Source: a virus
Strand: one strand, 5' to 3'
DNA: 31,873 nucleotides
Virus record (IMG/VR): IMGVR_UViG_3300048026_000012
Span: 1 to 31,873 of that record
Shown one piece after another: positions 5,670-23,445 of the stretch. A program made the translations under genes and the position numbers. Under the pieces are notes generated by a model. The model was not told the origin of the DNA. It worked only from the letters and a program-made list of their open reading frames with translations, and searched no databases. Within the stretch, counting starts at the first letter, position 1; the number at the start of each line of letters is the position of its first letter.

Positions 5670-6356
5670 TCACGCGGGTATAAATTTCTTAGGGTCTATC
5701 TCTTTACCCTGTTTATCGTTGCCTGTACGGGCTTTGCGTACACGACGCATCATGTCTTGTAATACTTTAGCACCTGCATCGGAGTTGCCATTACCTAGAT
5801 GACTTACAACATCCGCAGGAATAACAAACTCACCATCACTTAGTCGTGCTTCTTGCTTACCTTCAATGTTAGCAGGAACTTTGTCAGCCATTCCATCACT
5901 AGCACCATCAAGATATTTGCCTTCTTTTAACTGCGCAATACCCCCTGCAGCCATCCCTGTGGGTTCTTCCTGTACAGGTTCTGGAATACGTGGACCACCG
6001 GGTCTTCTACGTTCTTGTCGTGCAGGGTTAGCCGCGTTTAGTGTCGCCAAACCTTCCGCAGACATTGGTGTTGCGGGAGCCTCGCCCTTTGGACGATATT
6101 GTGCCTGCGTAAAATACCGCTGCCCACCACTTCCGGGTCGTCTGTTAGGATCATACGTGCTAGGTACAGTTTCGCGCTGTACTTCGTACTCAGGAATATC
6201 GCCTTGGTAACCTGTTTGTGGGATGTTAGCTTGCCCAATACCAGACTGGTTTAGTAAGTAACCGCCTCCAAGACTTACAGCCGCACCAAGAAGATCAAGT
6301 TCCCCGTCTTCACCTGAAACAAGTCCTTTGAGTGCATTGTCTAACCAACTAGCCAT
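5670..6356 (-). CDS. Internal virion-type protein with GEFVIPADVVSHLGNG motif
   Basis: The 228-residue protein has an N-terminal amphipathic or hydrophobic segment (LLGAAVSLGGGYLLNQSGIG, about residues 22-41). A proline-rich middle follows. The conserved C-terminal block runs MAAGGIAQLKEGKYLDGASD, GMADKVPANIEGKQEARLSD, GEFVIPADVVSHLGNGNSDA and ends KARTGNDKQGKEIDPKKFIP. The 'YLxGxxDGMxDxxPAxIEGxQ.ARLSDGEFVIPADVVSxLGNG' block is widespread in marine phage structural proteins. It lies between ejection-type proteins and overlaps the giant gene by one base (TAATG). Its role is unknown; it is probably part of the internal protein set. Confidence 0.75.
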   Translation of the reverse strand: MASWLDNALKGLVSGEDGELDLLGAAVSLGGGYLLNQSGIGQANIPQTGYQGDIPEYEVQRETVPSTYDPNRRPGSGGQRYFTQAQYRPKGEAPATPMSAEGLATLNAANPARQERRRPGGPRIPEPVQEEPTGMAAGGIAQLKEGKYLDGASDGMADKVPANIEGKQEARLSDGEFVIPADVVSHLGNGNSDAGAKVLQDMMRRVRKARTGNDKQGKEIDPKKFIPA

Positions 6357-9300
6357 TACATATCTCCAAGTATTCTTAGTAGCATATCATTTTCATCCTC
6401 AACCTGTCCACCCTCTGCAAAGCCACTAGCAAAAGCCAACGGACCCGCGGGATTATTTGCAGGTCGCGTAGTGGGCGCTCGTGCAGTTCCGTATGGACTT
6501 ACAAACTTTTGTGCCTGTCCTTGGTCCCTGAAGATAGACTCAAAGCTGTAAGGTGTTATGTCCGCTAACGCATCAGGAGTTTTAACATCTACGCGTCTTC
6601 CGCCTATGTCCTCTGCTTGCATTAACATGTTTGCCAAATCATTTACGTTCTGTTGCTGCGTTTGCGTGTTAATTTTTGTGTCAATCTGGGTGTTCAGATC
6701 AGTAATCATATCGGTGATTGCGTCCGTGTTTGCGTCTATCTCGCCGTATATACCTGTGGCTGGAGTAAACATGGACGTATCTGCAAGGGTAACGTCACCA
6801 CCCTGTAATGCAGTTTCTAACATCGTTTGGTCATTTATGTCAACGATACCGTCTCCAGTAACATCATACTGTGTGATTAACTCCGCGCTGACATTTTCTT
6901 GCGCGATTAAGTCAATTACGAAGTCTATGTCTTCCTGTGTAACTTCTCGTGCAGGTTTACCAACAAGGTCTGCGATTACATCAATGTCTGCGCCAAGGTT
7001 TTCTTCGACACCTTCAATGGTTTCTGTAAGACCCGCCTCGACCTCACCAATTTTTTCTGTAAGGCCCGCTTCTACCCCTGTTATCTTTTCAGATAGTGAG
7101 GTTTCTGTCTCCCCGATTGCTTCTAGCAACGCATCTTCGGTCAAGCCAAGGCTAGTAGCTACTTCACCAATGGCTTCCGCGAGCGCCTCATCGCGCTCCA
7201 TACCTGCATCTTCGTAGGCTTTGATTGTAGCAAAAATACCTGTGGGGTCTTGACTCTCATCTACTTCTGTATTCGGGTCATCTTCAATAGCAGGAGTACC
7301 AACAATACCTGCAAGATCACTTACGTCCTCGGTAACATCTGCTACGTCCTCGGCAACCTCTGCTACATCTTCTTTTACCTCTGCAACGTCCTCGGCTACA
7401 GCGTCTATTTCACCGCTAAGTTCTTCTTTTGTTAGCCCAAGCTGCTCCAACATAGCATCTTCAGTGAGGCCAAGGTCTTCAGTTAGTTTGTCAATCGCAG
7501 CTTGTAACGCCTCGTCGCGTGTAGCGCCTTCCTCTAACTCTTTGTATATCCCTGTAGCTTCTTTGGATTCATCTTCTGGTGTATTCGGGTTATCCTCAAC
7601 GGACGGTGAACCCATAATAGACTTAATCACGTTAAACGTAGCAGTCGGCATATACGTGGTAAGCTGTTCACGTTGAAACGCCTCAAACCCTGCCGCGTCA
7701 TAATCTTCGGACTCAGGATCAAACTGCCCTACAAACCGATCTACATCTTCTTGTGTTACATCTACAAGGCCCAACTCTTCGTAGGCTGCACGTACTTCAC
7801 CAGCGTCAAAGAACCTTGGGTCTACAAACTCGTCGATGGCGGCTTTTTGTGTAGTCTGGTAGTTTTCGTCATTTACCTGCCCAGTAAACGCTGCAATATC
7901 TTCCTGTGACGGTTGATACCCGATAGCACTTAGGAACTCTTCTGCTTCTGCTGCGGTTACCTGCCGTGGGTCAACGTAGCCACCGATAGCACTTGTCTGC
8001 GTTTCTTCTGTCTTAGAAGCCACAAACTGTGCGATTTCTTCTGGTGTTGCGGTATATCCTGTATCTGCAAAGAACTGTGTAGCTTCTTCTAGGGTGGTCG
8101 CTAACGGGTCGTATTCTGCACGCGCTTCCGATAGTTTTTCGGACGCGTAATTCTCTGCTACACCTTGACCTACATATGTGGCCGCTAGGGCGTCAGTTAG
8201 GGTAAGCCCTTCTTCATCGGCAATAGCCTGCACTTCTTCACGGGTAACCTGTCGTGGGTCTACATAAGACGCGATAAGTCCAGACTGTGTAGTTTCTTCA
8301 ACCTGCGCAACAAATTGCTCGACCTGTTCATCTGTCGGTTCATATCCAAGATTTGTAAAGAACTCACGCGCTTCTTCCGCCGTGACCTGCCGTGGGTCTA
8401 CGTAAGTTCCAACACCTGTTTCTGTAGTAGTCGCAAAGTTTTCTTCGCCTTGACCTACAAAATCTGCTACTTCTTCATCGGTAGCCTCATATCCTAGCGC
8501 ATCAAACAATGCCTTGGCTTCGTCTGTGGTGACCTGCCGTGGGTCAACAAACTCTGCGATGGCGGCTTTTTGTTCTTCTTCAGTTTTAGACGCAACAAAG
8601 TCCGCAACCTGTTGGTCTGTAGGTGTGAACCCTTGATCCTCAAAAAATGCTTTGGCTTCCGCAGTGGTAGTCGCTAGTGGGTCAAACTCGGCGGTAGCTG
8701 CGGCAAGTGTAGATTCTTGATCTTTTTGCCCAAGATACGTAGCGGCCAAGGCTTCTGTAAGTGTAAGTCCTTCTTGGTCTGCAATGGCTTGTACTTCGGC
8801 CTGTGTGACGAACCGTGGGTCCACATAATCGGATATGGCTGTCTGCTGCTCACTTTCCGCTACTTGCGCAACAAAGTCTGCAACCTCTTCGTCGGTAGGC
8901 GTATACCCAAGGTCAGAGAAGAACTTACGAGCTTCTGCATCAGTTACCTGTCGTGGGTCTACATACAGCGCCGTAGCGTCTTTCTTGTTAGTCTCGAAGT
9001 TTTCAGTGCCTTGCCCGACGTAGTTAGCGACTTCTTCATCTGTAGGTTCGTACCCTTGATCTTCAAAGAACTTACGGGCTTCTGCTTCGGTTACCTGTCG
9101 TGGGTCTACATAAGACGCGATGGCCTCTTTCTGGTCGGCATCTGGGGTTGCGCCCATATACGAAGTGATTTCTGCTTCTGTCGGGGTGTAACCTAACTCT
9201 GCGAAAAACTGTTCTGCCTCTTCGCGTGTAGTACCCTGCGGATCATACTCCGCTGATATTTCCGCAACGGCTGCGGCTTCGTCTTTCTGACCTACATATG

Positions 9301-12300
9301 CTTCCGCCTGTTCATCGGTAAGCGTTATACCCTCTGCAGCGGCGGCGGCTTTTACTTCGTCAGCGTCTAAGAATTTTGGGTCTATGTAAGATGCAACCGC
9401 AGCAGCTACATCAGATTCTGGTCTATTGGATACAAACGATTCTATTTCTGCATCTGTCGGCTCAAATCCGGGGTTTGCGTCCTTAAATATTTTGGCCGCT
9501 TCGTTCGTACTAACGTACATAGTGTCGTACGTGGAGTTGAGCACGTTGTTTAATATTACAGTGTCAGTAATACCTAAAGTGTTAAGCGCTGCTGTAGCGG
9601 CTTCGGCACTACCTGCGTTTTTAACAGTGTTTACCACCGTAGGGTTTAACGACATAAGCGCGTCAGCTACCGCGTTGCCTGTATATAGCGTGCCTCCGAC
9701 CCCGTAGCCAGAAACAGCGCCCATAAACCCGTTTTCAAACACGGAACCTGCGACATCGTAGTTAGGGTCGATCTGAGAGTTTACTGTTGCCGTAAATAGT
9801 TGTGGTAAGGCTTCCTCTATAAACTCTGTTGAGCCTTCTTTTATGGCTACGGTACCACCGTCCTGTATTTTCTTACCTAGTTTTTGGAACGCGTCCCCGG
9901 CAAATTCACTGGCATTATCACCAAGAAGGTTTTTAGCTAATGCTGCACCACCAATCCCTGCGCTGGCAGCGGTAGTGAATAGCGCAATAGTTCCCGCTTT
10001 TTGCGCGGTGTCCATAGCAAGATCGGTAGCCTCTTGTTCAGACATCCCTTGCGCTATGGCGTTTGCATATGTTTCATCAAAAGCCCCTGCAGCCGTACCG
10101 CCAAATGCTTCCGCTGCGTCTAAGGCTACTGCGCTACCGACTGCGGCCTTTGTAGCAAATTTTTTCGCGTAGGCTTCCCCACCTTGCAAGAGCGCTGCCT
10201 TCGCAACGTTGCCCACACCCCCAGAAACTACAAGAATAGGTATTTCCTGCAAAATCTCACTAGCTACGTTTTCCGCAAGAAACTGTACAGGGTGTTCTGT
10301 TAGGTTGCCCCAGATGGACTGCGCTTTTAACCAACCCTTTTGTACTGTGCTGGGTTCTTTGCCGGGATTATCCTGCCGCCATTCTTTGTCGTAATCCTGT
10401 GACCGTTTCTGCATATCTTCTGCGCCAGCTACCCACGCGTCAGAACGCAGGTCACCACTTAACGCTAGTAGATTTTTAGCAGTCTGCCCTACAGTGTTAT
10501 TTGGGTTTGCGCCAACTAGAGTAGCCAATCCTGATATGGCCTGTAGCATTTCACCAGTTGCGCCAGTAACTACACTTGCAGCGTTACCAAAGGCTTCCTG
10601 TTGATCTTCAGGAGTTTCGTCTAAATATACTTGTTTTAGTTTGTTGTATACGCTCCAAAGCGTACCGCCTGTATCCTCGTCAAATTGTTTACCTTGGTTA
10701 TCGTCTAACCCTGCGATAGTCGCTACTACGACCCCGCTTGCAGGGGGTAAGTTCTTTATAGATATTTGACCATCTTCAGTAAACGCGGTCATTTTGTCGT
10801 TACTGAGGTACGAAAACCCTTGTGGTACTTCTTTAAACGCGAGCGGTCCATATAACGCATTAAATGCAACGTCCACTACATCAAGGTTTGGGTTTGCGGA
10901 ACTAGCTACACTGCTTACGTTTGTTTCGCCTAGCTTTTCCTGTTTCGTAGATGGTAGCTCCCATGACAACTTTCCATCCGTATTGACGAGCACCGCCCCA
11001 CCGCTAGTCAGCGTACCAACATCAACACCTGCGCCGAACGTCACTGTGTCTAGCGTAGCTTCGGGTGGATTGTTTTTGAAATCTGTAGCCGCAGCGTCTA
11101 CTGCTGAAAGGCTTGGTTTATCAAACGCAGGGTCACCCGCACCGCCGTCAAAGGCATCTTTAAACGCGTTGCCAACATTAACTATGTTATTAGTAGAGTA
11201 CCCATTTTCACTTAGTAAGTCTTTTACCTCGTCCCCCGACATACCTGTGGTGTCGATAAAAATGTTAGACCCATCGCTGTTTTTTGCATCAAGTTTAATG
11301 TACTCGCCTGACAAAAAGACATTATAGTCCTTTGTGGATTGGGGTATAAACCCTGCGTCTTTTAGCGATGTTGTTAGTTCAGGGGTCAGCGCAGCGTCCG
11401 CAACCATAGTGTTGGCGAACTTATCTAAATCTAACCCTGTAATACTCGCGGCGTTCTTTATTTCTTTGTCTGCGTAAGCAAGATATTTAGCTAACTGGCC
11501 CGGTTCTAGGGAAGCAAGCGTCAACCCCTTCGCAGCTAGGGCGTTTTCTACGGTGGATAACCTGATAGCGTCTAGGGTGGCGTCTGCTTCTGACTTGTTT
11601 GCTGGACCCTGTTGCCCATTAAGAAGAAAATGTTCTGCAGCGTTGTCAAAATCTTGACCAAGAAACTCTTTGTATGCTTCCGCATCAAAATTAGGGCGTA
11701 GGGACAGTGCCGCTGCAAGTGTGGCTTTATCATAAACAGGCTTCATAGACGCGTCTAGGTCGTCTATGTCGGACATCATATACTCTGTTTTTTCTTTGTA
11801 CGTAGCGTCTAGTTCAGGGATTTGCGCAGTATATGTGTCATAGTCTGTTTTATATTTGTCTAGCGCAGGTTTAAGCGTATTGTCGTAATCACTTTTAAAC
11901 TGATCCGCAAAAGTTTGATATGCCCCCGCCGCAGAATTAAGGGCATCCACAGTAGCTTGTGTAGGGTTTTGATTATATGCTTTAAGCGCGGCGTTATAAA
12001 TACCTTCAAGCCGTTCTTGCTCTATTACTTTCTTTTGTATCGCAACTTGCGTGGCATTATAACCCTCCGCCGCGGCTACTGCGTTTGCTGATGCTTCGTT
12101 AAGTGCATTTGCGGCATCCTGAGTAGCACTGGATGCTCCTGTAACCTTGTCTATGGCGGCATCAACAGGGCGGTCTACAATATCTTTAAGCGCCTCCATC
12201 CCGTACTCATCCCACTTAGCAAAAAATGCGTCGGAACTTAGTTCAGGGTTGCCTTCCAAAGCTACAGTTGCAGCGTTGGTTAGCGCATTGGTCATAACTA

Positions 12301-13120
12301 TGGCTTGGCCTTCATCAAAACCAGCGTTCTCTTGCAAGAACTTATTCATGGTTTCGGACACGCCAGTGTATTTACTAATTATAGATGTAAATTGTGACGC
12401 GGAAACATCACCACCTGTAATCTCAGCGGTGAGGGATGCGGTAATACTATCCTTAACGCCGTCTTGAAGTTGCTCCCAACCACCTACGATAGGATTACCT
12501 TCAACGTCTATCCCGCCAGTAAAGTTTTCGTACTTAGCATCTATCTTATCTGCAATTTGTCCAAGAGTAGCGCCGACTGCAGCATTAAGACCCCCTGTAG
12601 CGAACGCCTGTAGTGGGTCTTGTCCATATATAATCGCTGTAGTAGCAGATTGTGTACCACCTTTAATACCTGCTTGGACAGCGGCTTCGACGGTAGAGTT
12701 TAACCCTGCGCTAGCTATTTTTGGGTTAACATATGTTGAACTAAATTCTCCAACTTTCCCAGTAGCATAAGAAATGGCTGCAGCCTTGACTACATCACCA
12801 AGATCGCCTCCGTTTGCGGCTACTGCAGCACCGTCAATAAGAGGGAGCGCCCATGCGTTACCCGTAGCAACTGCGCCTATCTTAGCAATAGTAGTAATCG
12901 GGTCGTCTAACGCAGCTTGAATAACATCCCCAACGCCACTTAGTACGGGTTCGACTATCTCGTCTACAACCCAATCAACAGCGTCACCAACAGCGCCGAC
13001 AACATCTTCGACAATATCTACAGCACCGCCAACTACATCACCCACTACGTCGGCTACACCGCCTAATACATCACCTACTGCGTCGGCTACGTCTTCCGCG
13101 GCCTCAACTAATACAGACAT
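6356..13120 (-). CDS. Giant internal virion / DNA-ejection-type protein, 2254 residues
   Basis: The order of parts is as follows. Residues 1-72 are Val/Asp/Gly/Ala amphipathic repeats (DVVGDVVGGAVDIVEDVVGA). Long helical or coiled regions follow up to about 950. Hydrophobic, Ala/Gly-rich segments that could enter membranes lie at about 955-1155 (IPILVVSGGVGNVAKAALLQ, TIALFTTAASAGIGGAALAK). Residues 1201-1815 are a hierarchical repeat of helical units with consensus YVDPRQVTxxEA..FF..xGYxPTDEEVAxFVGQ. A duplicated 'EDxPNT...ESxxxTGI[YF]' module with coiled coils comes next, then a dockerin-type calcium loop at 2086-2097 (DVTGDGIVDIND), and finally an AEGGQVEDENDMLLRIL end. Size, membrane-active segments and position fit ejection proteins that pass through the tail to form a DNA conduit. 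No transglycosylase residues can be assigned by eye. Confidence 0.8.
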   Translation of the reverse strand: MSVLVEAAEDVADAVGDVLGGVADVVGDVVGGAVDIVEDVVGAVGDAVDWVVDEIVEPVLSGVGDVIQAALDDPITTIAKIGAVATGNAWALPLIDGAAVAANGGDLGDVVKAAAISYATGKVGEFSSTYVNPKIASAGLNSTVEAAVQAGIKGGTQSATTAIIYGQDPLQAFATGGLNAAVGATLGQIADKIDAKYENFTGGIDVEGNPIVGGWEQLQDGVKDSITASLTAEITGGDVSASQFTSIISKYTGVSETMNKFLQENAGFDEGQAIVMTNALTNAATVALEGNPELSSDAFFAKWDEYGMEALKDIVDRPVDAAIDKVTGASSATQDAANALNEASANAVAAAEGYNATQVAIQKKVIEQERLEGIYNAALKAYNQNPTQATVDALNSAAGAYQTFADQFKSDYDNTLKPALDKYKTDYDTYTAQIPELDATYKEKTEYMMSDIDDLDASMKPVYDKATLAAALSLRPNFDAEAYKEFLGQDFDNAAEHFLLNGQQGPANKSEADATLDAIRLSTVENALAAKGLTLASLEPGQLAKYLAYADKEIKNAASITGLDLDKFANTMVADAALTPELTTSLKDAGFIPQSTKDYNVFLSGEYIKLDAKNSDGSNIFIDTTGMSGDEVKDLLSENGYSTNNIVNVGNAFKDAFDGGAGDPAFDKPSLSAVDAAATDFKNNPPEATLDTVTFGAGVDVGTLTSGGAVLVNTDGKLSWELPSTKQEKLGETNVSSVASSANPNLDVVDVAFNALYGPLAFKEVPQGFSYLSNDKMTAFTEDGQISIKNLPPASGVVVATIAGLDDNQGKQFDEDTGGTLWSVYNKLKQVYLDETPEDQQEAFGNAASVVTGATGEMLQAISGLATLVGANPNNTVGQTAKNLLALSGDLRSDAWVAGAEDMQKRSQDYDKEWRQDNPGKEPSTVQKGWLKAQSIWGNLTEHPVQFLAENVASEILQEIPILVVSGGVGNVAKAALLQGGEAYAKKFATKAAVGSAVALDAAEAFGGTAAGAFDETYANAIAQGMSEQEATDLAMDTAQKAGTIALFTTAASAGIGGAALAKNLLGDNASEFAGDAFQKLGKKIQDGGTVAIKEGSTEFIEEALPQLFTATVNSQIDPNYDVAGSVFENGFMGAVSGYGVGGTLYTGNAVADALMSLNPTVVNTVKNAGSAEAATAALNTLGITDTVILNNVLNSTYDTMYVSTNEAAKIFKDANPGFEPTDAEIESFVSNRPESDVAAAVASYIDPKFLDADEVKAAAAAEGITLTDEQAEAYVGQKDEAAAVAEISAEYDPQGTTREEAEQFFAELGYTPTEAEITSYMGATPDADQKEAIASYVDPRQVTEAEARKFFEDQGYEPTDEEVANYVGQGTENFETNKKDATALYVDPRQVTDAEARKFFSDLGYTPTDEEVADFVAQVAESEQQTAISDYVDPRFVTQAEVQAIADQEGLTLTEALAATYLGQKDQESTLAAATAEFDPLATTTAEAKAFFEDQGFTPTDQQVADFVASKTEEEQKAAIAEFVDPRQVTTDEAKALFDALGYEATDEEVADFVGQGEENFATTTETGVGTYVDPRQVTAEEAREFFTNLGYEPTDEQVEQFVAQVEETTQSGLIASYVDPRQVTREEVQAIADEEGLTLTDALAATYVGQGVAENYASEKLSEARAEYDPLATTLEEATQFFADTGYTATPEEIAQFVASKTEETQTSAIGGYVDPRQVTAAEAEEFLSAIGYQPSQEDIAAFTGQVNDENYQTTQKAAIDEFVDPRFFDAGEVRAAYEELGLVDVTQEDVDRFVGQFDPESEDYDAAGFEAFQREQLTTYMPTATFNVIKSIMGSPSVEDNPNTPEDESKEATGIYKELEEGATRDEALQAAIDKLTEDLGLTEDAMLEQLGLTKEELSGEIDAVAEDVAEVKEDVAEVAEDVADVTEDVSDLAGIVGTPAIEDDPNTEVDESQDPTGIFATIKAYEDAGMERDEALAEAIGEVATSLGLTEDALLEAIGETETSLSEKITGVEAGLTEKIGEVEAGLTETIEGVEENLGADIDVIADLVGKPAREVTQEDIDFVIDLIAQENVSAELITQYDVTGDGIVDINDQTMLETALQGGDVTLADTSMFTPATGIYGEIDANTDAITDMITDLNTQIDTKINTQTQQQNVNDLANMLMQAEDIGGRRVDVKTPDALADITPYSFESIFRDQGQAQKFVSPYGTARAPTTRPANNPAGPLAFASGFAEGGQVEDENDMLLRILGDM
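7680..9520 (-). repeat. Hierarchical tandem repeat in the giant virion protein
   Basis: Thirteen units of about 45-50 residues occur between residues 1201 and 1815. The conserved start is [YF]xDPxx[VT]T and the end GYxPTxEEVxxFV[GA]Q. The units are of four types (C, D, A, B). Type C units (with xxEV..IA..EGLTLT) begin at Tyr1245, Tyr1432 and Tyr1619, exactly 187 residues (561 bp) apart. The order is a degenerate B, then C-D-A-B, C-D-A-B, C-D-A and a final diverged C-like unit. The super-repeat shows that a four-unit block was duplicated. Confidence 0.92.
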
Positions 13121-13587
13121 TACCCTACCTCACTCAATGGTATTTCTCCCAGAGTAACATACGCCCTTGATCCACCTGTGGCCTTTCGACCCACAGCAAT
13201 TTTAGTGTCGGCTTTATCAGCGTACCGTTTCCATGATTTAAACGCGCTGTCGTATATATCCCCATCATAATCAGAAACGTACCGTTTTATACCTTTCCGT
13301 TGCATATAGGTAAAATAACGCAACCCGTTGGCTATAAAGTTTTGCGCCGTGTCAAGATTAAACGCACGGCCCCACATCAAGTCTTCGTTTTTGCCTTTGC
13401 CCCTATGCCCAAGAAACACTGTGTTCCCTATCTGCACCATGTCGGAGTCTTCCATATTCATCTCTTCAACGATACTAACCATCGCTACTTCGACGCTAAT
13501 GTTTTTCGGTTTAAGCTCCCCAACTACAGTGGAAATAATTGTAGGTGCGGGTAGCGGTTCGGTTTTACTATCTACAACAGTTAGCAC
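13120..13587 (-). CDS. Unassigned 155-residue protein between ketosynthase and giant virion protein
   Basis: The start is GTG at 13587, behind GGAGGTGTAGG formed by the last codons of the ketosynthase gene. The N-terminal 35 residues are proline-rich and probably flexible. The rest looks like one alpha/beta domain: EVAMVSIVEEM, IGNTVFLGHRGKGKNEDLMW, FIANGLRYFTYMQRKGIKRY and ADTKIAVGRKATGGSRAYVT. Layout and position resemble the small internal virion protein (gp13 type) that precedes the ejection proteins in T7-like phages, some of which are thought to have an acetyltransferase-like fold. I see no convincing acetyl-CoA loop. It could equally be an acyl-handling partner of the ACP and ketosynthase. 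Function is open. Confidence 0.65.
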   Translation of the reverse strand: MLTVVDSKTEPLPAPTIISTVVGELKPKNISVEVAMVSIVEEMNMEDSDMVQIGNTVFLGHRGKGKNEDLMWGRAFNLDTAQNFIANGLRYFTYMQRKGIKRYVSDYDGDIYDSAFKSWKRYADKADTKIAVGRKATGGSRAYVTLGEIPLSEVG

Positions 13588-13588
13588 C

Positions 13589-14701
13589 CTACACCTCCGT
13601 AGAAAAAATTGCGGCTGAATAGATATTACCCATGCCAGCGGCTAGACTAAGAAACGGCCCTTGAGGGGCTGGCGCATCATAGGACAAGAACACATCATCG
13701 TCTGCGGTCCTATTGAGTATTTTTGGTACAATACCGCATTCTATGTCATTTAGCAACAGTCCTGTCTCTAATAACCCACTAGCGCCCATTGTATGGCCTA
13801 TTCGTTGTTTGTATGATGTAGCCACAAACTCTCCCAAACTACGTTGTAACGCGGCTTTTTCTGCTCTATTGTTTACTTCTGTACCCGTCCCATGAGTCTT
13901 TACCACGGTAACATCTTCCTTACGTACCCCCGCTACATGTAAGGAACCTTCGATAGCCTTAGAGTAGCCTTCACCATCAGGACGTTGCCCAAGAGGATTT
14001 GTATTGTCTTCCGCAGATGTATATGCACCAAGAAACGCGGCTTTAGGTTTAGTTAGCCCAGCGTGCTGTTTTTCAAATATACACAGTGTTGCGCCTTGTC
14101 CTAAGAAAAAACCTTGATTAACTTCGTCAAACGCGGATGGTTTTATGCGTTCCTCGTCTTTGTACTGCAAGCTAGCCCCTGCTTCACCAAAAAACTCTAA
14201 TGTTAGGTTGTTAACAGCGTCTTCACCACTAAGCACAATAACACGATCAAACCCAAAGTTGTTCATAAGGTTCTGTACGTCCATCATTACTTTTAAACTA
14301 GACGCGCACGCACTAGCGTCCGTGGATACGTGGTCGTGTACGTGAAACATACTAGCCACACGCCCCGCGTATATATTTGTTAGCACAATGAACGGTAACT
14401 TTACCTTGTAGTGCAACTCCGTACTATCATCCTTATCATAACGCCCGTTGTTGCCCATCCAACCTTGATTACCTGCGGCAAATATAAAAGCAGTTTTACC
14501 TTTTACGGGATTGTCCAACACATAATTTACGGCTTCGTCGGTTATCACTGTTTCTAACAACGTATGCGGCGGGTATTTAAGTCCAGACTTAGCACGTCTA
14601 AACGTTTCAGGAAGTATATGCGCATGTTGTGGAAACGGTACATCGTCAACCAATGTAGTATTTTCGGCGTAATTCCCATAAAACTTAGCCAAATAGATCA
14701 T
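13589..14701 (-). CDS. Beta-ketoacyl-ACP synthase (KAS II/FabF-like condensing enzyme)
   Basis: This 370-residue thiolase-fold enzyme retains the whole condensing-enzyme active site. Cys132 is in VSTDASACASSLKV, His270 in VKTHGTGTEVNNRAE, and His303 in YKQRIGHTMGASGLLETG with Lys298 before it. The 'GQGATLCIFEK' strand and the C-terminal GMGN turn (residues 356-359) are also conserved. The reaction is decarboxylative Claisen condensation of malonyl-ACP with an acyl-ACP to give 3-ketoacyl-ACP. FabF is usually about 410 residues; this one is shorter and its first 80 residues are divergent. It starts with GGAGGCTGTAAC before the ATG and follows the ACP gene in one operon. The FabF assignment over FabB or a polyketide chain-length factor is tentative; the active Cys argues against a chain-length factor. 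Confidence 0.92.
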   Translation of the reverse strand: MIYLAKFYGNYAENTTLVDDVPFPQHAHILPETFRRAKSGLKYPPHTLLETVITDEAVNYVLDNPVKGKTAFIFAAGNQGWMGNNGRYDKDDSTELHYKVKLPFIVLTNIYAGRVASMFHVHDHVSTDASACASSLKVMMDVQNLMNNFGFDRVIVLSGEDAVNNLTLEFFGEAGASLQYKDEERIKPSAFDEVNQGFFLGQGATLCIFEKQHAGLTKPKAAFLGAYTSAEDNTNPLGQRPDGEGYSKAIEGSLHVAGVRKEDVTVVKTHGTGTEVNNRAEKAALQRSLGEFVATSYKQRIGHTMGASGLLETGLLLNDIECGIVPKILNRTADDDVFLSYDAPAPQGPFLSLAAGMGNIYSAAIFSTEV

Positions 14702-14985
14702 GTTACAGCCTCCATAGCTGCTTCTACAGTATCAAAGTCTCGTTGTTTGTTCTCCCACATATAATCTCGTACATGCCGTAATGATTCGGTAGGTACATTA
14801 AAATCTTCTGTTTCTGGTATGCCGTATATTTCAAACAACATGACAAACGTAAGCGTCACGTCTAAGCTATCTAACCCAATATCTTCTTCTTTTAGGGTTA
14901 CATCTAATGATTTAGGTTTAGTGTATTTGTCTAAACGCGGTTTAGTTTCCTGCACACACGCGTCGAACAGCTCTATAAAGTCCAT
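14698..14985 (-). CDS. Acyl carrier protein
   Basis: This 95-residue acidic protein carries the acyl carrier signature EEDIGLDSLDVTLTFVMLFE (about residues 33-52), with Ser40 as the 4'-phosphopantetheine attachment site. The helix II residues and the following EIYGIPETEDF match the ACP pattern 'lGaDSLdtvElvm.lEe.F.ieIpd'. The C-terminal helix contains TESLRHVRDYMWE. ACP tethers growing acyl or malonyl chains as thioesters. It needs a holo-ACP synthase, and none is visible in the window, so the host enzyme is presumed. The gene overlaps the ketosynthase start by four bases (ATGA), so the two are translationally coupled. ACPs are typically about 80 residues, so this one is slightly longer at both ends. 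Confidence 0.9.
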   Translation of the reverse strand: MDFIELFDACVQETKPRLDKYTKPKSLDVTLKEEDIGLDSLDVTLTFVMLFEIYGIPETEDFNVPTESLRHVRDYMWENKQRDFDTVEAAMEAVT

Positions 14986-14988
14986 TTT

Positions 14989-15009
14989 GCACCTATCTGT
15001 TGAGGGTGC
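14989..15009 (-). promoter_or_regulatory. Hairpin over the ACP ribosome binding site
   Basis: GCACC (15009-15005) and GGTGC (14993-14989) form a 5-bp stem with an 11-base loop. The 3' arm contains the AGGTG-type Shine-Dalgarno, and the ATG begins 4 bases later. Folding would partly hide the ribosome binding site, so translation could be gated. The stem is short and may be weak. Confidence 0.4.
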
Positions 15010-15013
15010 TTTT

Positions 15014-15043
15014 ATTATACGTTACTTACAAAGGAGATGTCTA
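15014..15043 (-). promoter_or_regulatory. Sigma70-like promoter for the acyl carrier protein / ketosynthase pair
   Basis: The minus strand reads TAGACA (15043-15038), an 18-base spacer and TATAAT (15019-15014). The -10 is a perfect consensus and the -35 matches 5 of 6. Spacing is the same as in the promoter at 31588-31617. It lies in the last codons of the jelly-roll gene, 29 bases before the ACP start. It would allow the ACP and ketosynthase to be expressed apart from the long virion transcript. Confidence 0.6.
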
Positions 15044-15632
15044 TAGACGCAGACGGTATCCCGGGATGTGGAGACGTAGCGGTTTCTGTGTGTAAATTTA
15101 ACTGGGTGTCTCCTGTTGCCCAATAAACCTCTATGTAGTCGTTTGCTGCCAAAGAGACAGTAAACCCCCAGTGTATAACGTAGTCATCGTTACCTTTTAC
15201 GTCGAACATATGCCCCGAATACGCTATCGCACTACCGTTTTTATGCTCCCAAACAGTTATAGGCGTCTCACTAGAGTTATTGTGTTCTAGCTGCAGTGTA
15301 ACGTCAAACTTGTATATACCGGGGTTTTGTACGTTTATTCTGCTGTTGTTTGATAGTGTGATTGCACTATTGTATGAAGTATTGTTGAATGTAACTGCAT
15401 AGCCTGTATTCGTGGACGAGGCTGTTTGGTCCTGCGTACTATAAAAGGCTGCACAGGGGTTGTACAAAAACTTACCCCCAACATCAGTGCTAAGTAACGT
15501 GTTTAATGTGTTGACAAGGCGATTGAAGAACAAACGCAACACGTTGCTATTCTGGTCCATATATGGACGATCATATCCTTCAGGGGCTAGAGGAAGCGCA
15601 GGTGTAGCTACCTTTTCAATCTCACTGGGCAT
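15015..15632 (-). CDS. Jelly-roll virion protein with tail-attachment N-terminus
   Basis: The 205-residue protein starts MPSEIEKVATPALPLAPEGY, then DRPYMDQNSNVLRLFFNRLV. This 'PxAPxGYDRxYMDQxxNVLRLFFNxLVN' element is a recurrent virion-anchoring segment in marine phages. From about residue 62 there is a C1q/TNF-like or other jelly-roll domain (AFYSTQDQTAS, GIYKFDVTLQLEHNNS, IPSASIDISFVSNV). It is probably a minor tail protein that binds the neighbouring nozzle-like protein, with which it overlaps by one base (TAATG). The promoter-like sequence for the acyl carrier protein genes lies in its last codons. Confidence 0.75.
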   Translation of the reverse strand: MPSEIEKVATPALPLAPEGYDRPYMDQNSNVLRLFFNRLVNTLNTLLSTDVGGKFLYNPCAAFYSTQDQTASSTNTGYAVTFNNTSYNSAITLSNNSRINVQNPGIYKFDVTLQLEHNNSSETPITVWEHKNGSAIAYSGHMFDVKGNDDYVIHWGFTVSLAANDYIEVYWATGDTQLNLHTETATSPHPGIPSASIDISFVSNV

Positions 15633-17479
15633 TACCGCCTCCCGTCAGGGCGCATGTCAATCCTCGGTGCACCAAGCTGCCATGTAACACCTTCTCCTGT
15701 AGACTCAACTTTCATAGCAAGCTGCCTACCACGCACGCGGGTATATATCTGCCCCGTATACGCCTCTACAGGAAGCACAGCCGTACGGGTTATCGTACGT
15801 GAGTTACTACCACCTTCCGACAGAGGATCATTATAGCCAGACCCAGAATTGGCAAGTGGCAGTAACGTCATCGTCGCACTGGGGGAACCTGTTGTAGACC
15901 CATCAAACCGTATGTCAGGCAATATGCGCCATATAAACGCAAACTGATGGCCGTCTTCTAAGTCAAACTCTGCAGAAGCAACAAACGCGTGTATGGCTGC
16001 GGTGGTGGCTGTCTCGTTGTCATCTACACCTTCCTCGTGGTTTACGAGGTTATATGAGTATGTAGCTGCAAGCGGGTTACCCCGTAGACCGGAATCAAGC
16101 CATGCGGTGCGGGCCATTGTGCCATAATACCAAATATCTTCTAGGTAGTTGTACACCACATAGCGATCTATATTTGTTTGATCGGCAGAACAATAGAACC
16201 ACCATATTTCGTGATACGACTCGTTAGTCCCTGCGAACACCTGCTCGTACTGTTGCTCGTTAAAGTTACCAAAAATAAACTTTCGTAGATCACAGCGCAG
16301 TGGTTGGGTACGTCCGTCATACTTGTAGAACTTATCTTTACCCATCCAATAGGCTACGCCGTTAGCATAGGCTACACAGTTTTGTGAGGCAGTAGATATG
16401 TTTTCACCAACAAGCTGCGCTGACCATACTACAGGGGCACCCACATATTGTAGGGAATACAACGCGGAATCAGTCCAAACCAAAACCTCTTGTCTGGCTT
16501 GCTTCGCAGCAATAATTTCTGTGCCGTTAGATAACGTAAGAAACCCTGCTTGTGACGTAACCGATGGTGTCCAATCTACCACGCTACCTTGATCTGACCA
16601 TCGCACCAACATGGGGTTGACTGTCGCACTACCAAACTCATTTGCGCCGAACGCAAACACAAAACGATTGATGTCGGATACTTCTATAAGGCGTTGGCTT
16701 GTGGGTACGTTGCTTGCGCCACCAAGAGTTGATAATTCTACCCCGCGAGATGTTAGCCCGTTAGTTGCATCCCAATAATATATCGGTCCCCCACGAGGCC
16801 CAAAAACAAGGTCTTCACCAAAGTTAGATTCACTCCAAAGTCTAATAGATTCTGTGGATGTTACGCCTACACCCCACGTACCAGAACTCCAAGAACCTGC
16901 GCCCCAACCCGTAAGTGGGATAGCAAACGCGGTGCCGACGTTAATCTGATATGCCGCTGTAACCGTACCACCACCTGTTGCGCTAGAAGACGCCGCGGAA
17001 CCCGCATCTATTGTGTATTCGTTGGTAGTGGTAGTAAGGGTTATCTGATATTCGCCGTTTAGTGTAAGCCCACCTACGGCAGTGGCACCACTATAGGTAA
17101 CAAAATCTCCGTCTGTGTAGCCACCATTTGCATCGGTAACCGTAACAATAGGAGAACCTGAAACTGTTTCAAACGGGTTTGTGAGCGTCACTGTAGCACG
17201 TAATGGAGTGATGTCGTTATACGCCCCACCGTTCTCAATGTAGTATTTTAGGTTGGTGCCGACGGCAATAAGGTTCTGACTACCTAGTGTTACCCAATTC
17301 CATAATGACCTGCACACACCTTGAAACGTGGTAGCAGATATACGTTGCCAACCACCTATCTTCTCAGGTGTACCCTGCCGAAAGCGTATCTTGTCGCACT
17401 CGTACCAGCCACCTTCGCTTGTGTAGCGTGTGTTTTCGCGGTTCACACCAGACTTTAAAAGTAGCTTCTTTAGGGGCAT
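15632..17479 (-). CDS. Large tail protein, nozzle/hub type (P22 gp10-like)
   Basis: The 615-residue protein begins MPLKKLLLKSGVNRENTRYT, then EGGWYECDKIRFRQGTPEKI and GGWQRI. This N-terminal pattern is characteristic of tail-hub or 'DNA stabilisation' proteins of short-tailed phages. The rest is all-beta with propeller-like strands (LIAVGTNLKYYIENG, VFAFGANEFGSATVNPMLVR, LYSLQYVGAPVVWSAQLVGE, VAYWMGKDKFYKYDGR). It ends with a conserved RVRGRQLAMKVESTGEGVTW. It would form the hexameric nozzle below the adaptor. The assignment to the gp10/nozzle class rests on sequence style and context, so it is moderately certain. It starts behind AAGGTGTAAC right after the endolysin. Confidence 0.7.
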   Translation of the reverse strand: MPLKKLLLKSGVNRENTRYTSEGGWYECDKIRFRQGTPEKIGGWQRISATTFQGVCRSLWNWVTLGSQNLIAVGTNLKYYIENGGAYNDITPLRATVTLTNPFETVSGSPIVTVTDANGGYTDGDFVTYSGATAVGGLTLNGEYQITLTTTTNEYTIDAGSAASSSATGGGTVTAAYQINVGTAFAIPLTGWGAGSWSSGTWGVGVTSTESIRLWSESNFGEDLVFGPRGGPIYYWDATNGLTSRGVELSTLGGASNVPTSQRLIEVSDINRFVFAFGANEFGSATVNPMLVRWSDQGSVVDWTPSVTSQAGFLTLSNGTEIIAAKQARQEVLVWTDSALYSLQYVGAPVVWSAQLVGENISTASQNCVAYANGVAYWMGKDKFYKYDGRTQPLRCDLRKFIFGNFNEQQYEQVFAGTNESYHEIWWFYCSADQTNIDRYVVYNYLEDIWYYGTMARTAWLDSGLRGNPLAATYSYNLVNHEEGVDDNETATTAAIHAFVASAEFDLEDGHQFAFIWRILPDIRFDGSTTGSPSATMTLLPLANSGSGYNDPLSEGGSNSRTITRTAVLPVEAYTGQIYTRVRGRQLAMKVESTGEGVTWQLGAPRIDMRPDGRR

Positions 17480-21642: not shown

Positions 21643-23445
21643 TTATTCCTCCGTCATTGCTTGTAGGGTGGCGTTGGATAGGCGGGTTGGATACAAGGCC
21701 ACTTTCTTAAATGTGGCTCCGCTATCAGCATTAGCATCGTTTAAACTCCCAAGGTATAAGTTTGTTACCTGTGGCGTTATTATGGTTGTATCGCTAACTG
21801 TGGTAAGCCCCCCTGCCGTAACCGAAAGATTATCCCGATCAAACGCAGCAGCAGCCTTAAAGAATGTTTTATAGGCGGGATCAAAGGACCTATTAAGAGA
21901 TGCCTGTGGTACATCGTTTGTTTCAGCGTATGCTTGTACATCTCCAGAACTTTCGGAAATCGTAATTTGCATACGGTTGTTGTTTGTGCCATCACTCAAC
22001 AGAACAAGTCTTGCGTAATCCACATCACCAGCTTCCGCTGCCTCAACATACATTGACACAGGGCCGCTGCTGTACACTCCTGACAGTGACATATTGGCTC
22101 TATCACTGCTCCTAGTCACAGTAGACCCAGAGGTGGGGATGTATGACGTTGGGAATGCGCCAGCTTCTAGTTGGTAACCCCAAAGTGCAATTTTATCGGC
22201 ATTCGTGACATTGCCATCATAATATAGGCGCAGTGTTTGCGACGATGCGGTAGTCGTCAAAACGTAATGCAAACGATACCAACCATTCCCGACATCTTCT
22301 GAAACGACACTGCTTGCCTGTATCCCAACGCTATTCGAGAAAGCAAAAACAGGCGTTGTGCTACTGTCTAAGTTGCCCCATATAGTTTTTTGGAAGAACG
22401 ATAGGACTAATTTCGTGCCACTAGCATAAGACAGGCTCTTTTCTAAACGGCTAGACGGGTCTACTTCTGGTCCCGTTACCGTATCGGCAGTCAGCGTCCC
22501 GTCAGGCGCAATAACTGTATTATAAAGAAAGGGTTGGCTATAAACGTTGCTAAACGACCACGTTGCGGTTTCCGAACTGGTAAGAGCATTCGTCCTAGCT
22601 TCCTCAATCAGCAAGCCCTTGCTTTCACCTGTCACTGGATCGTGGTCAAACCGTGCCTCACCTGATGCCGCTGTTTGCAGTGTCGGTTGGTACTTCACGA
22701 TGGGGGCAGAGGTTGTCGCTGTGTAGGCTGTGGCTGAACTGCGCTGTTCTATCTGCACTCCCCACAAATGACAAAAATTAGTGCCGTTACCGCTGTACTG
22801 CGTAACATCATCTGTCGTTGTATTAGAAACCCCTAACGTAAACGCTCTACTTGCGCCAGTTGTTTCTGTCTTTGTAGCCTGTATGCGATACCAATTATTA
22901 CCAACGCTTGCTATGGAGTAACTATCAAATGCCCCATAACCATCACCTGAAGCATTGCCGATATAAGCACCTGTAGAGATATTAAATTTGGCAATTAAGC
23001 CTGTACCACCTATTGTAGAATACAGATAAACCGCTGATACGCCTGTACCAGCTTTCGCATATACGGAATGCGTGTACGTCTCCCCTGTTACAGTTGTTTG
23101 TGCATTAAGATACGCATCTTGAAATGTATTTGTCGTTGTGTTAACTACAATCTTTGTTGCGGTTGTTGTTCCGTCTGGGGCAGTAGCATCGTTGTCAGTT
23201 GCAGTTGTGTTGGTCTGAGATAGATTTGCAATTGTCTGACTGTTCGTTGATAAATTCTCTTCAGCCTTAGTCGTCGTCTTGCCATCCCAGTAAGTCGCAG
23301 TGCTGCCACGGGTAAACGTGATCCGTGGATCAAGGGTCTTGCTGTTCGCAAAATCTAGCAGAAGGCTAGGACGGACATCGGGCATGTCATAGCCATCACC
23401 CGTCGAATAGCCGTTCTTGGCGATGAAATTTTTTGTGTTAGCCAT
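21643..23445 (-). CDS. Tail spike/fibre protein with two carbohydrate-binding-like beta-sandwich modules
   Basis: The 600-residue protein has an attachment-like N-terminus. The segment LLLDFANSKTLDPRITFTRG (about residues 28-47) with STATYWDGKT after it is a recurrent motif of phage tail proteins. Two modules follow, each with a 'GNxWYRxxxxxT' strand (NNWYRIQATK, GNGWYRLHYVL) and a '[HA]LWGxQ[IL]Exxxxx[ST]xYxxT' ending (HLWGVQIEQRSSATAY, ALWGYQLEAGAFPTSY). These are typical of CBM/concanavalin-like jelly rolls. The C-terminus (GSLNDANADSGATFKKVALY) resembles a LamG-type end. It probably binds host surface glycans. No glycosidase residues can be assigned by eye. Confidence 0.8.
   Translation of the reverse strand: MANTKNFIAKNGYSTGDGYDMPDVRPSLLLDFANSKTLDPRITFTRGSTATYWDGKTTTKAEENLSTNSQTIANLSQTNTTATDNDATAPDGTTTATKIVVNTTTNTFQDAYLNAQTTVTGETYTHSVYAKAGTGVSAVYLYSTIGGTGLIAKFNISTGAYIGNASGDGYGAFDSYSIASVGNNWYRIQATKTETTGASRAFTLGVSNTTTDDVTQYSGNGTNFCHLWGVQIEQRSSATAYTATTSAPIVKYQPTLQTAASGEARFDHDPVTGESKGLLIEEARTNALTSSETATWSFSNVYSQPFLYNTVIAPDGTLTADTVTGPEVDPSSRLEKSLSYASGTKLVLSFFQKTIWGNLDSSTTPVFAFSNSVGIQASSVVSEDVGNGWYRLHYVLTTTASSQTLRLYYDGNVTNADKIALWGYQLEAGAFPTSYIPTSGSTVTRSSDRANMSLSGVYSSGPVSMYVEAAEAGDVDYARLVLLSDGTNNNRMQITISESSGDVQAYAETNDVPQASLNRSFDPAYKTFFKAAAAFDRDNLSVTAGGLTTVSDTTIITPQVTNLYLGSLNDANADSGATFKKVALYPTRLSNATLQAMTEE

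Follow-up and report, generated by a model that had tools for sequence, protein, structure and literature searches.

An acyl carrier protein–ketosynthase cassette in uncultured aquatic phages, usually placed among genes of the injection machinery

In the pathway to Nod factors, NodA uses an acyl-ACP as its donor, and the special acyl chain is made by the NodE/NodF pair (PMC5080398, a paper that uses these two names the other way round from convention). The transferases HlyC, ApxC and CdiC also draw on acyl-ACP, and the lysine acylation that they carry out promotes membrane interaction of the modified protein (PMC8510554). In a review devoted to phage ejection proteins (PMC8954989) the word "acyl" occurs nowhere. 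In the open literature that we searched, acpP, fabF and fabG of phage-like elements are described only as AMGs of prophages.

Here we report a unit composed of an acyl carrier protein (ACP) gene and a ketosynthase (KS) gene that is present in many uncultured aquatic phages, usually located among the genes of the injection machinery. The analysis suggests production of a special fatty acyl group by these phages, which they may use to modify a protein of their own virion. Four points go beyond the initial annotation of the locus, namely a third component with a GNAT fold, a nested distribution of the three genes, a second genomic context of the pair, and a FabZ dehydratase added to two cassettes.

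The window, by which we mean the whole stretch of DNA analyzed (31,873 nt), is a 31.9-kb virus fragment whose closest relative, IMG/VR 3300048554_000002 (63.6 kb), matches most of the window genes at 90–100%. The genes of interest all lie on the minus strand, in the order tail nozzle, C1q-like needle, ACP, KS, a 155-aa protein, a 2254-aa protein and then more genes of the ejection type. The nozzle, or tail stabilization, protein (15632..17479) was recognized through phrog_3287 (3e-66). The protein encoded at 15015..15632, directly upstream of the ACP, is needle-like, with a weak Pfam C1q match (E 0.008) that falls under the curated cut-off; we take it to be the tail needle from its position and from what is known of P22-like phages. 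The ACP (14698..14985, 95 aa) and the KS (13589..14701, 370 aa) share an ATGA stop/start overlap of 4 nt (14698..14701), visible in the reading frames of the window and matched by a gap of −4 in 160 loci having both genes. The 155-aa GNAT-fold protein (13120..13587), a candidate acyltransferase or assembly factor, heads the ejection-protein run, and its stop overlaps by 1 nt the gene for the 2254-aa ejection/internal virion protein (6356..13120), a possible target of acylation.

In a related record (G012) the major capsid protein shares 64–74% identity with its counterparts in Planktothrix phage Pag-Yong1, phage DSL-LC04 and the Pelagibacter phages HTVC023P and HTVC027P, which identifies the phage group as the short-tailed Pam1/HTVC023P type; the window phage is P22/Pam1-like. 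Three deposited genomes, OL906435.1, OQ594354.1 and PP438419.1, have the same length (65014) and identical capsid matches (73.6%) under differing cyanobacterial host names, so that their host attribution looks doubtful. When the interval 13589–15632 is compared with another related record (G014), the needle, the ACP and the N-terminal half of the KS differ against near-identity elsewhere, which marks a recombination tract.

The carrier is recognized by the conserved serine of its predicted phosphopantetheine site, Ser40 in the motif GLDSLD. Its identification by sequence is less strong than that of the KS. In Pfam searches the window ACP gave no significant match to PP-binding or to any other family, and 11 of 28 members of its family matched PP-binding (best E 5.5e-4). 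A DSL serine stands ahead of helix II in all 40 dereplicated ACPs; a second count gave DSL for 77 copies and DSM for another 4, and the serine of this motif is kept in every ACP copy examined. Helix II contains one acidic residue in the window ACP and in most homologues, versus five in E. coli AcpP. The acidic helix II is read by many AcpP partners, and its loss in the phage ACP therefore suggests that this carrier has a partner of its own instead of serving host enzymes at large.

The KS belongs to the FabF superfamily, as established by Pfam, PDB, structure prediction and alignment. For the window copy, Ketoacyl-synt_C (3.8e-18) and ketoacyl-synt (6.5e-9) both score above cut-off, and the best PDB sequence matches are FabF structures (3e-20). 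The AF2 model (pLDDT 87.3, pTM 0.90) likewise retrieves FabF folds as the best Foldseek matches (E 4.7e-22, TM ~0.8). Cys132, His270, Lys298 and His303 align with FabF C164, H304, K336 and H341, and all four are invariant in 106 of 106 aligned phage KS. Compared with E. coli FabF (413 aa), the 370-aa window protein has a shortened N-terminal half, and the gating loop reads GMGNxY/F where FabF has GFGGTN, with Met357 and Asn359 invariant across the phage family. Because of this altered loop, in which the Phe at the gate becomes Met and GGTN becomes GNxY, the substrate of the phage KS cannot be read off. These results uphold the core of the initial annotation, an ACP with Ser40 in GLDSLD and a condensing enzyme with this catalytic tetrad, coupled through ATGA. 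The two genes are overlapping neighbors, however, and not "fused" as it had stated, and its description of the KS as "intact" is right for the active site, though not for the shortened N-terminal half or the GFGGTN loop.

The PHROGs family that contains the KS, phrog_35856, is annotated as of unknown function. In MW202545.1 the deposited KS gene (22437-23381, our L082:20157-21101) begins at a start codon inside the real one; the true start lies at L082:20001 and gives the ATGA overlap with the ACP, so that the database protein is short by 52 residues.

A maximum-likelihood tree with sampled cellular KS, an analysis that the initial annotation had recommended, placed all phage KS in a single, very distant clade, monophyletic beyond one branch of 100/100 support and 3.8 substitutions/site. 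Identity to cellular KS (FabF/FabB) is about 17–23%, and a KS profile that gave 660–720 bits for phage copies gave 108 bits for the best cellular sequence. A scan of GTDB genome contigs for close cellular or prophage copies returned only a FabF-like match of 29%. Recent acquisition of a host FabF was rejected on the grounds of the monophyletic clade, its long branch and the low cellular profile score. Both the ACP and the KS are under strong purifying selection, with dN/dS of 0.03–0.12 in most pairs and 0.14 in one near-identical pair. Taken together, the invariant catalytic site, the separate clade and the low dN/dS indicate from sequence that the KS is an old, functional phage enzyme family.

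A search of viral contigs for the same pair had also been recommended, and it was productive. Relatives are encoded on 178 IMG/VR stretches, and eight viral scans yielded 315 loci with a full KS, 214 of them distinct by DNA and mostly beside ejection genes. By automatic count, the ACP lies directly upstream in 209 of the 214; three of the others end at the contig edge and two were flagged as lacking the ACP, one of which (L306) proved to have it on closer look. Among loci whose upstream DNA could be seen and was inspected, no KS without an ACP was found. The GNAT gene adjoins the cassette in about 155 of the 214 (148 + 1 by automatic rule, 6 added by hand), and it is present as a neighbor in nearly all tail-context loci. 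Within the tail context the interval from needle to GNAT has three layouts, containing ACP and KS, the ACP only, or neither. The ACP occurs without KS in about a dozen loci, always with its serine retained, and the GNAT gene occurs without ACP or KS in about a dozen more (L140, which has an ACP, belongs with the ACP-bearing layouts). The distribution is thus nested: the KS is never seen without the ACP, the ACP sometimes stands without the KS, and the GNAT gene sometimes without either. The layouts switch at least four times on the GNAT tree. Near-complete KS-free records of 40–62 kb exist, and KS, ACP and GNAT were not found in the stretches read of the cultured relatives HTVC027P, Pag-Yong1 and DSL-LC04.

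By mean distance, the KS (0.24–0.25) is among the slowest-evolving proteins of the locus, versus 0.47–0.49 for the ACP and the GNAT-fold protein. Co-inheritance was also considered as a guide to the acylation target. The needle follows the KS worst (r 0.32–0.58) and was rejected as a special target; ACP, KS, GNAT and nozzle are mutually correlated at r 0.59–0.85, so that co-inheritance singles out no target.

The third component is the 155-aa protein. It gave no match in a Pfam search. Its AF2 model (pLDDT 91.7) has GNAT enzymes as its listed PDB fold matches, with probability near 1, modest TM values of 0.38–0.58 and a best E of 4.8e-4; the matches include BjaI, a CoA-dependent acyl-homoserine-lactone synthase, and BFVD gives a weak fold match to a protein named "internal virion protein A". 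The Q/R-x-x-G-x-G/A CoA loop is absent from the GNAT alignment, in which β4 runs into α3 as RAFNxDTxxNF. Membership in the HlyC family was rejected, there being no Pfam HlyC match, no invariant His/Asp dyad and no conservation of His61. By position, the gene presumably occupies the slot of P22 gp14 and T7 gp13. Of 142 distinct cases in which the neighbor is visible, 137 have a gap of −4 to +2 nt to the following ejection gene, a spacing from which the GNAT gene and the giant ejection gene are predicted to be translationally coupled almost everywhere, in an arrangement like that of hlyC and hlyA.

The cassette also occurs in a second context, flanked by a gene for an SNF2-like helicase and one for a small HTH-like protein, which accounts for 51 of the 214 distinct KS; the context of one locus, L473, is ambiguous. 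The tail and ejection run in which the pair was first noted is therefore confirmed as its setting in the window but is not its only setting, and strict linkage of ACP–KS to the GNAT and ejection genes is rejected. The helicase–HTH gap is −16 to +23 nt in 67 of 68 cassette-free relatives, and in carriers it widens to 1386–1425 nt, or to 1839–1842 nt where a FabZ gene has been added. This FabZ-type dehydratase (PF07977, about 104 bits) directly follows the KS in two cassettes (L400:12769-13200 and L418:4201-4632), and its addition fits genuine fatty-acid chemistry.

In one phage of this second group (G180) some 20 kb separate the cassette from the tail genes, which run on the other strand. All three KS-bearing records with a visible nozzle (G180, G192 and G194) nevertheless have the GNAT gene directly after the nozzle, versus none of nine KS-free records with a visible nozzle when the canonical form is counted; eight of the nine have no GNAT match and one (G201) has only a highly diverged form. 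The hypergeometric chance is 4/220 for 3/3 vs 1/9 and 1/220 for 3/3 vs 0/9, and since the 12 records are related, some of them near copies, this co-occurrence is suggestive and not proof. The diverged relatives at L510:4135-4557 (G201) and L514:3968-4348 (G168) are 126–140 aa long and have lost the GNT / RAxNxDT signature; the 126-aa slot protein of G168 looks by eye like a further diverged copy. Additionally, a conserved acidic, Trp-rich protein of 83–90 aa is encoded after the nozzle gene in phages of the helicase group (L507:3645-3896 and equivalents).

From these observations we consider it quite likely that the ACP and KS together make a dedicated acyl-ACP. The fuller proposal, that they form a NodF–NodE-like module which works on host enzymes and feeds the GNAT-fold protein for acylation of a virion or ejection protein, we judge to be evenly poised between right and wrong. 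In this scheme Ser40 of the phage ACP would be armed by a host phosphopantetheinyl transferase, after which the KS, with the active site described above, would condense malonyl units onto the ACP-borne chain. The reductive steps would fall to host FabG, FabZ and FabI, with a few phages contributing their own FabZ, and the product would be a particular acyl-ACP, comparable to the one supplied by NodF and NodE for Nod factors. Homologues of ACPS, malonyl-transferase (FabD) and FabG-type reductase were all absent from 12 related records, so host enzymes must supply these functions, in agreement with the reliance on host fatty-acid synthesis that had been claimed from the window. In the last step, as our best single guess, the GNAT-fold protein would take the acyl group from the ACP and attach it to a virion protein encoded by a neighboring gene. 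The most likely acceptor would be an ejection protein, which acylation might allow to enter the host membrane (compare HlyC and CdiC). Phages without the KS may load ordinary host-made chains onto the phage ACP, and those without both genes may use host acyl-ACP or skip the modification.

The order GNAT > ACP > KS > FabZ is the pattern expected of a transferase, its donor and the chain-tailoring enzymes. An acyl group for a virion protein had been one suggestion of the initial annotation; it gains support from the GNAT-fold neighbor and its co-occurrence with the unlinked pair, while the acyl transfer itself and its target are what we infer. Against the model, the GNAT-fold protein, which has neither the usual CoA loop nor an HlyC-like dyad, could be an inactive assembly protein, and several group-1 lineages have it with neither ACP nor KS. 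We offer only tentatively, as falling short of an even prospect, the more specific idea that a custom acyl chain, built by ACP, KS and sometimes FabZ, is passed through the GNAT-fold protein to lipidate an ejection or tail protein and so breach the host membranes.

The main rival to virion-protein acylation is modification of host lipids, in which the ACP and KS would be AMGs that alter the flux, chain length or saturation of host fatty acids, for membranes or energy, with no protein acylated and the GNAT-fold protein an unrelated assembly protein. The placement of 51 of the 214 KS in an early replication region would be natural for such a host-directed role, as would the movement of the pair as a clean two-gene cassette, the FabZ added to two of these cassettes and the independent occurrence of the group-1 GNAT gene; moreover, acpP, fabF and fabG on roseobacter prophages have been called AMGs (PMC8224337). 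However, the KS is always paired with an unusual, dedicated ACP whose helix II is non-acidic, its distance from host FabF/FabB is unlike that of typical recently acquired AMGs, and the GNAT gene tracks the cassette even when unlinked. We regard this explanation as unlikely, though still the foremost competitor.

Alternatively, the acyl-ACP, perhaps with the KS as a scaffold, might act structurally as an assembly factor or chaperone for the ejection proteins, comparable to mitochondrial acyl-ACP with LYR proteins. The position of ACP–KS between needle and ejection genes and the retention of the ACP without the KS in several phages are in keeping with this, but the invariant catalytic residues of the KS and the optional FabZ imply chemistry, and the cassette is also found away from virion genes, which makes a structural role improbable. 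We are equally doubtful that the unit makes an acylated compound or lipid (a signal, a siderophore-like or a membrane-active molecule) with the GNAT-fold protein or a host enzyme as transferase: NodA-type enzymes do acylate small acceptors and BjaI is among the fold matches, but such a match is generic for GNATs, the GNAT gene is coupled to the ejection gene, and no other biosynthetic gene or exporter was seen. Finally, an assembly chimera or host contamination, which the initial annotation had named along with absence from related phages as grounds against its reading, is rejected as next to impossible, since 214 distinct KS lie within syntenic phage genomes and form a separate clade for which the searched genomes contained no close cellular relative, even though the KS also matched certain "phage" database records that are clear bacterial FabF/FabB contamination; neither of the two eventualities came about, and the pair is present in many related phages. 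Many entries assigned to phages of Listeria, Enterococcus, Staphylococcus and Acinetobacter carry apparently ordinary bacterial FabF/FabB, pointing to host contamination of those records.

The ACP–KS unit in the virion operon is thus a real and probably undescribed module. The enzyme types themselves are known; a widespread, phage-specific cassette of this kind linked to an ejection operon was not found in the literature searched, which was mostly open-access. If the proposed acylation is correct, it would be the first case of tailed phages encoding a pathway that lipidates virion proteins. The proteins that short-tailed phages eject have to cross two membranes and the wall, and lipidated ejection proteins would be a testable chemical answer to the problem of insertion. 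Should the product instead act on host lipids, the locus would still represent a large, old, phage-specific KS clade with its own carrier and not a recent pick-up from a host.

Comparison with known systems brings out both the likenesses and the departures. The phage KS has the fold and Cys-His-His-Lys site of FabF and FabB (KAS II/I), and differs from them in its separate clade, Met gate, GNxY loop and shorter N-terminal half. As on the roseobacter prophages (PMC8224337), ACP and KS genes are carried by a phage-like element, but those prophages have the order fabG-acpP-fabF of the bacterial fab operon, whereas here a divergent, phage-specific clade is found without fabG. The order nozzle, needle, small protein and ejection proteins is that of the P22, Sf6 and T7 ejection operons, into which, unlike in those phages, ACP–KS is inserted between needle and GNAT. 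The HlyC, ApxC and CdiC systems share with this locus a small (here putative) acyltransferase gene beside the gene for a giant secreted or injected protein; in contrast to them, the phage supplies its own ACP and KS, and its GNAT-fold protein has no HlyC Pfam match or invariant His/Asp dyad. From NodF–NodE the phage genes differ in sitting in a virion operon and in an acceptor other than a chitooligomer. By analogy with that pair, a dedicated ACP and KS would draw on housekeeping fatty-acid synthesis with no other chain-building enzymes of their own, and the separate N-acyltransferase that moves the acyl group in NodF–NodE–NodA would have its counterpart in the predicted GNAT-fold protein.
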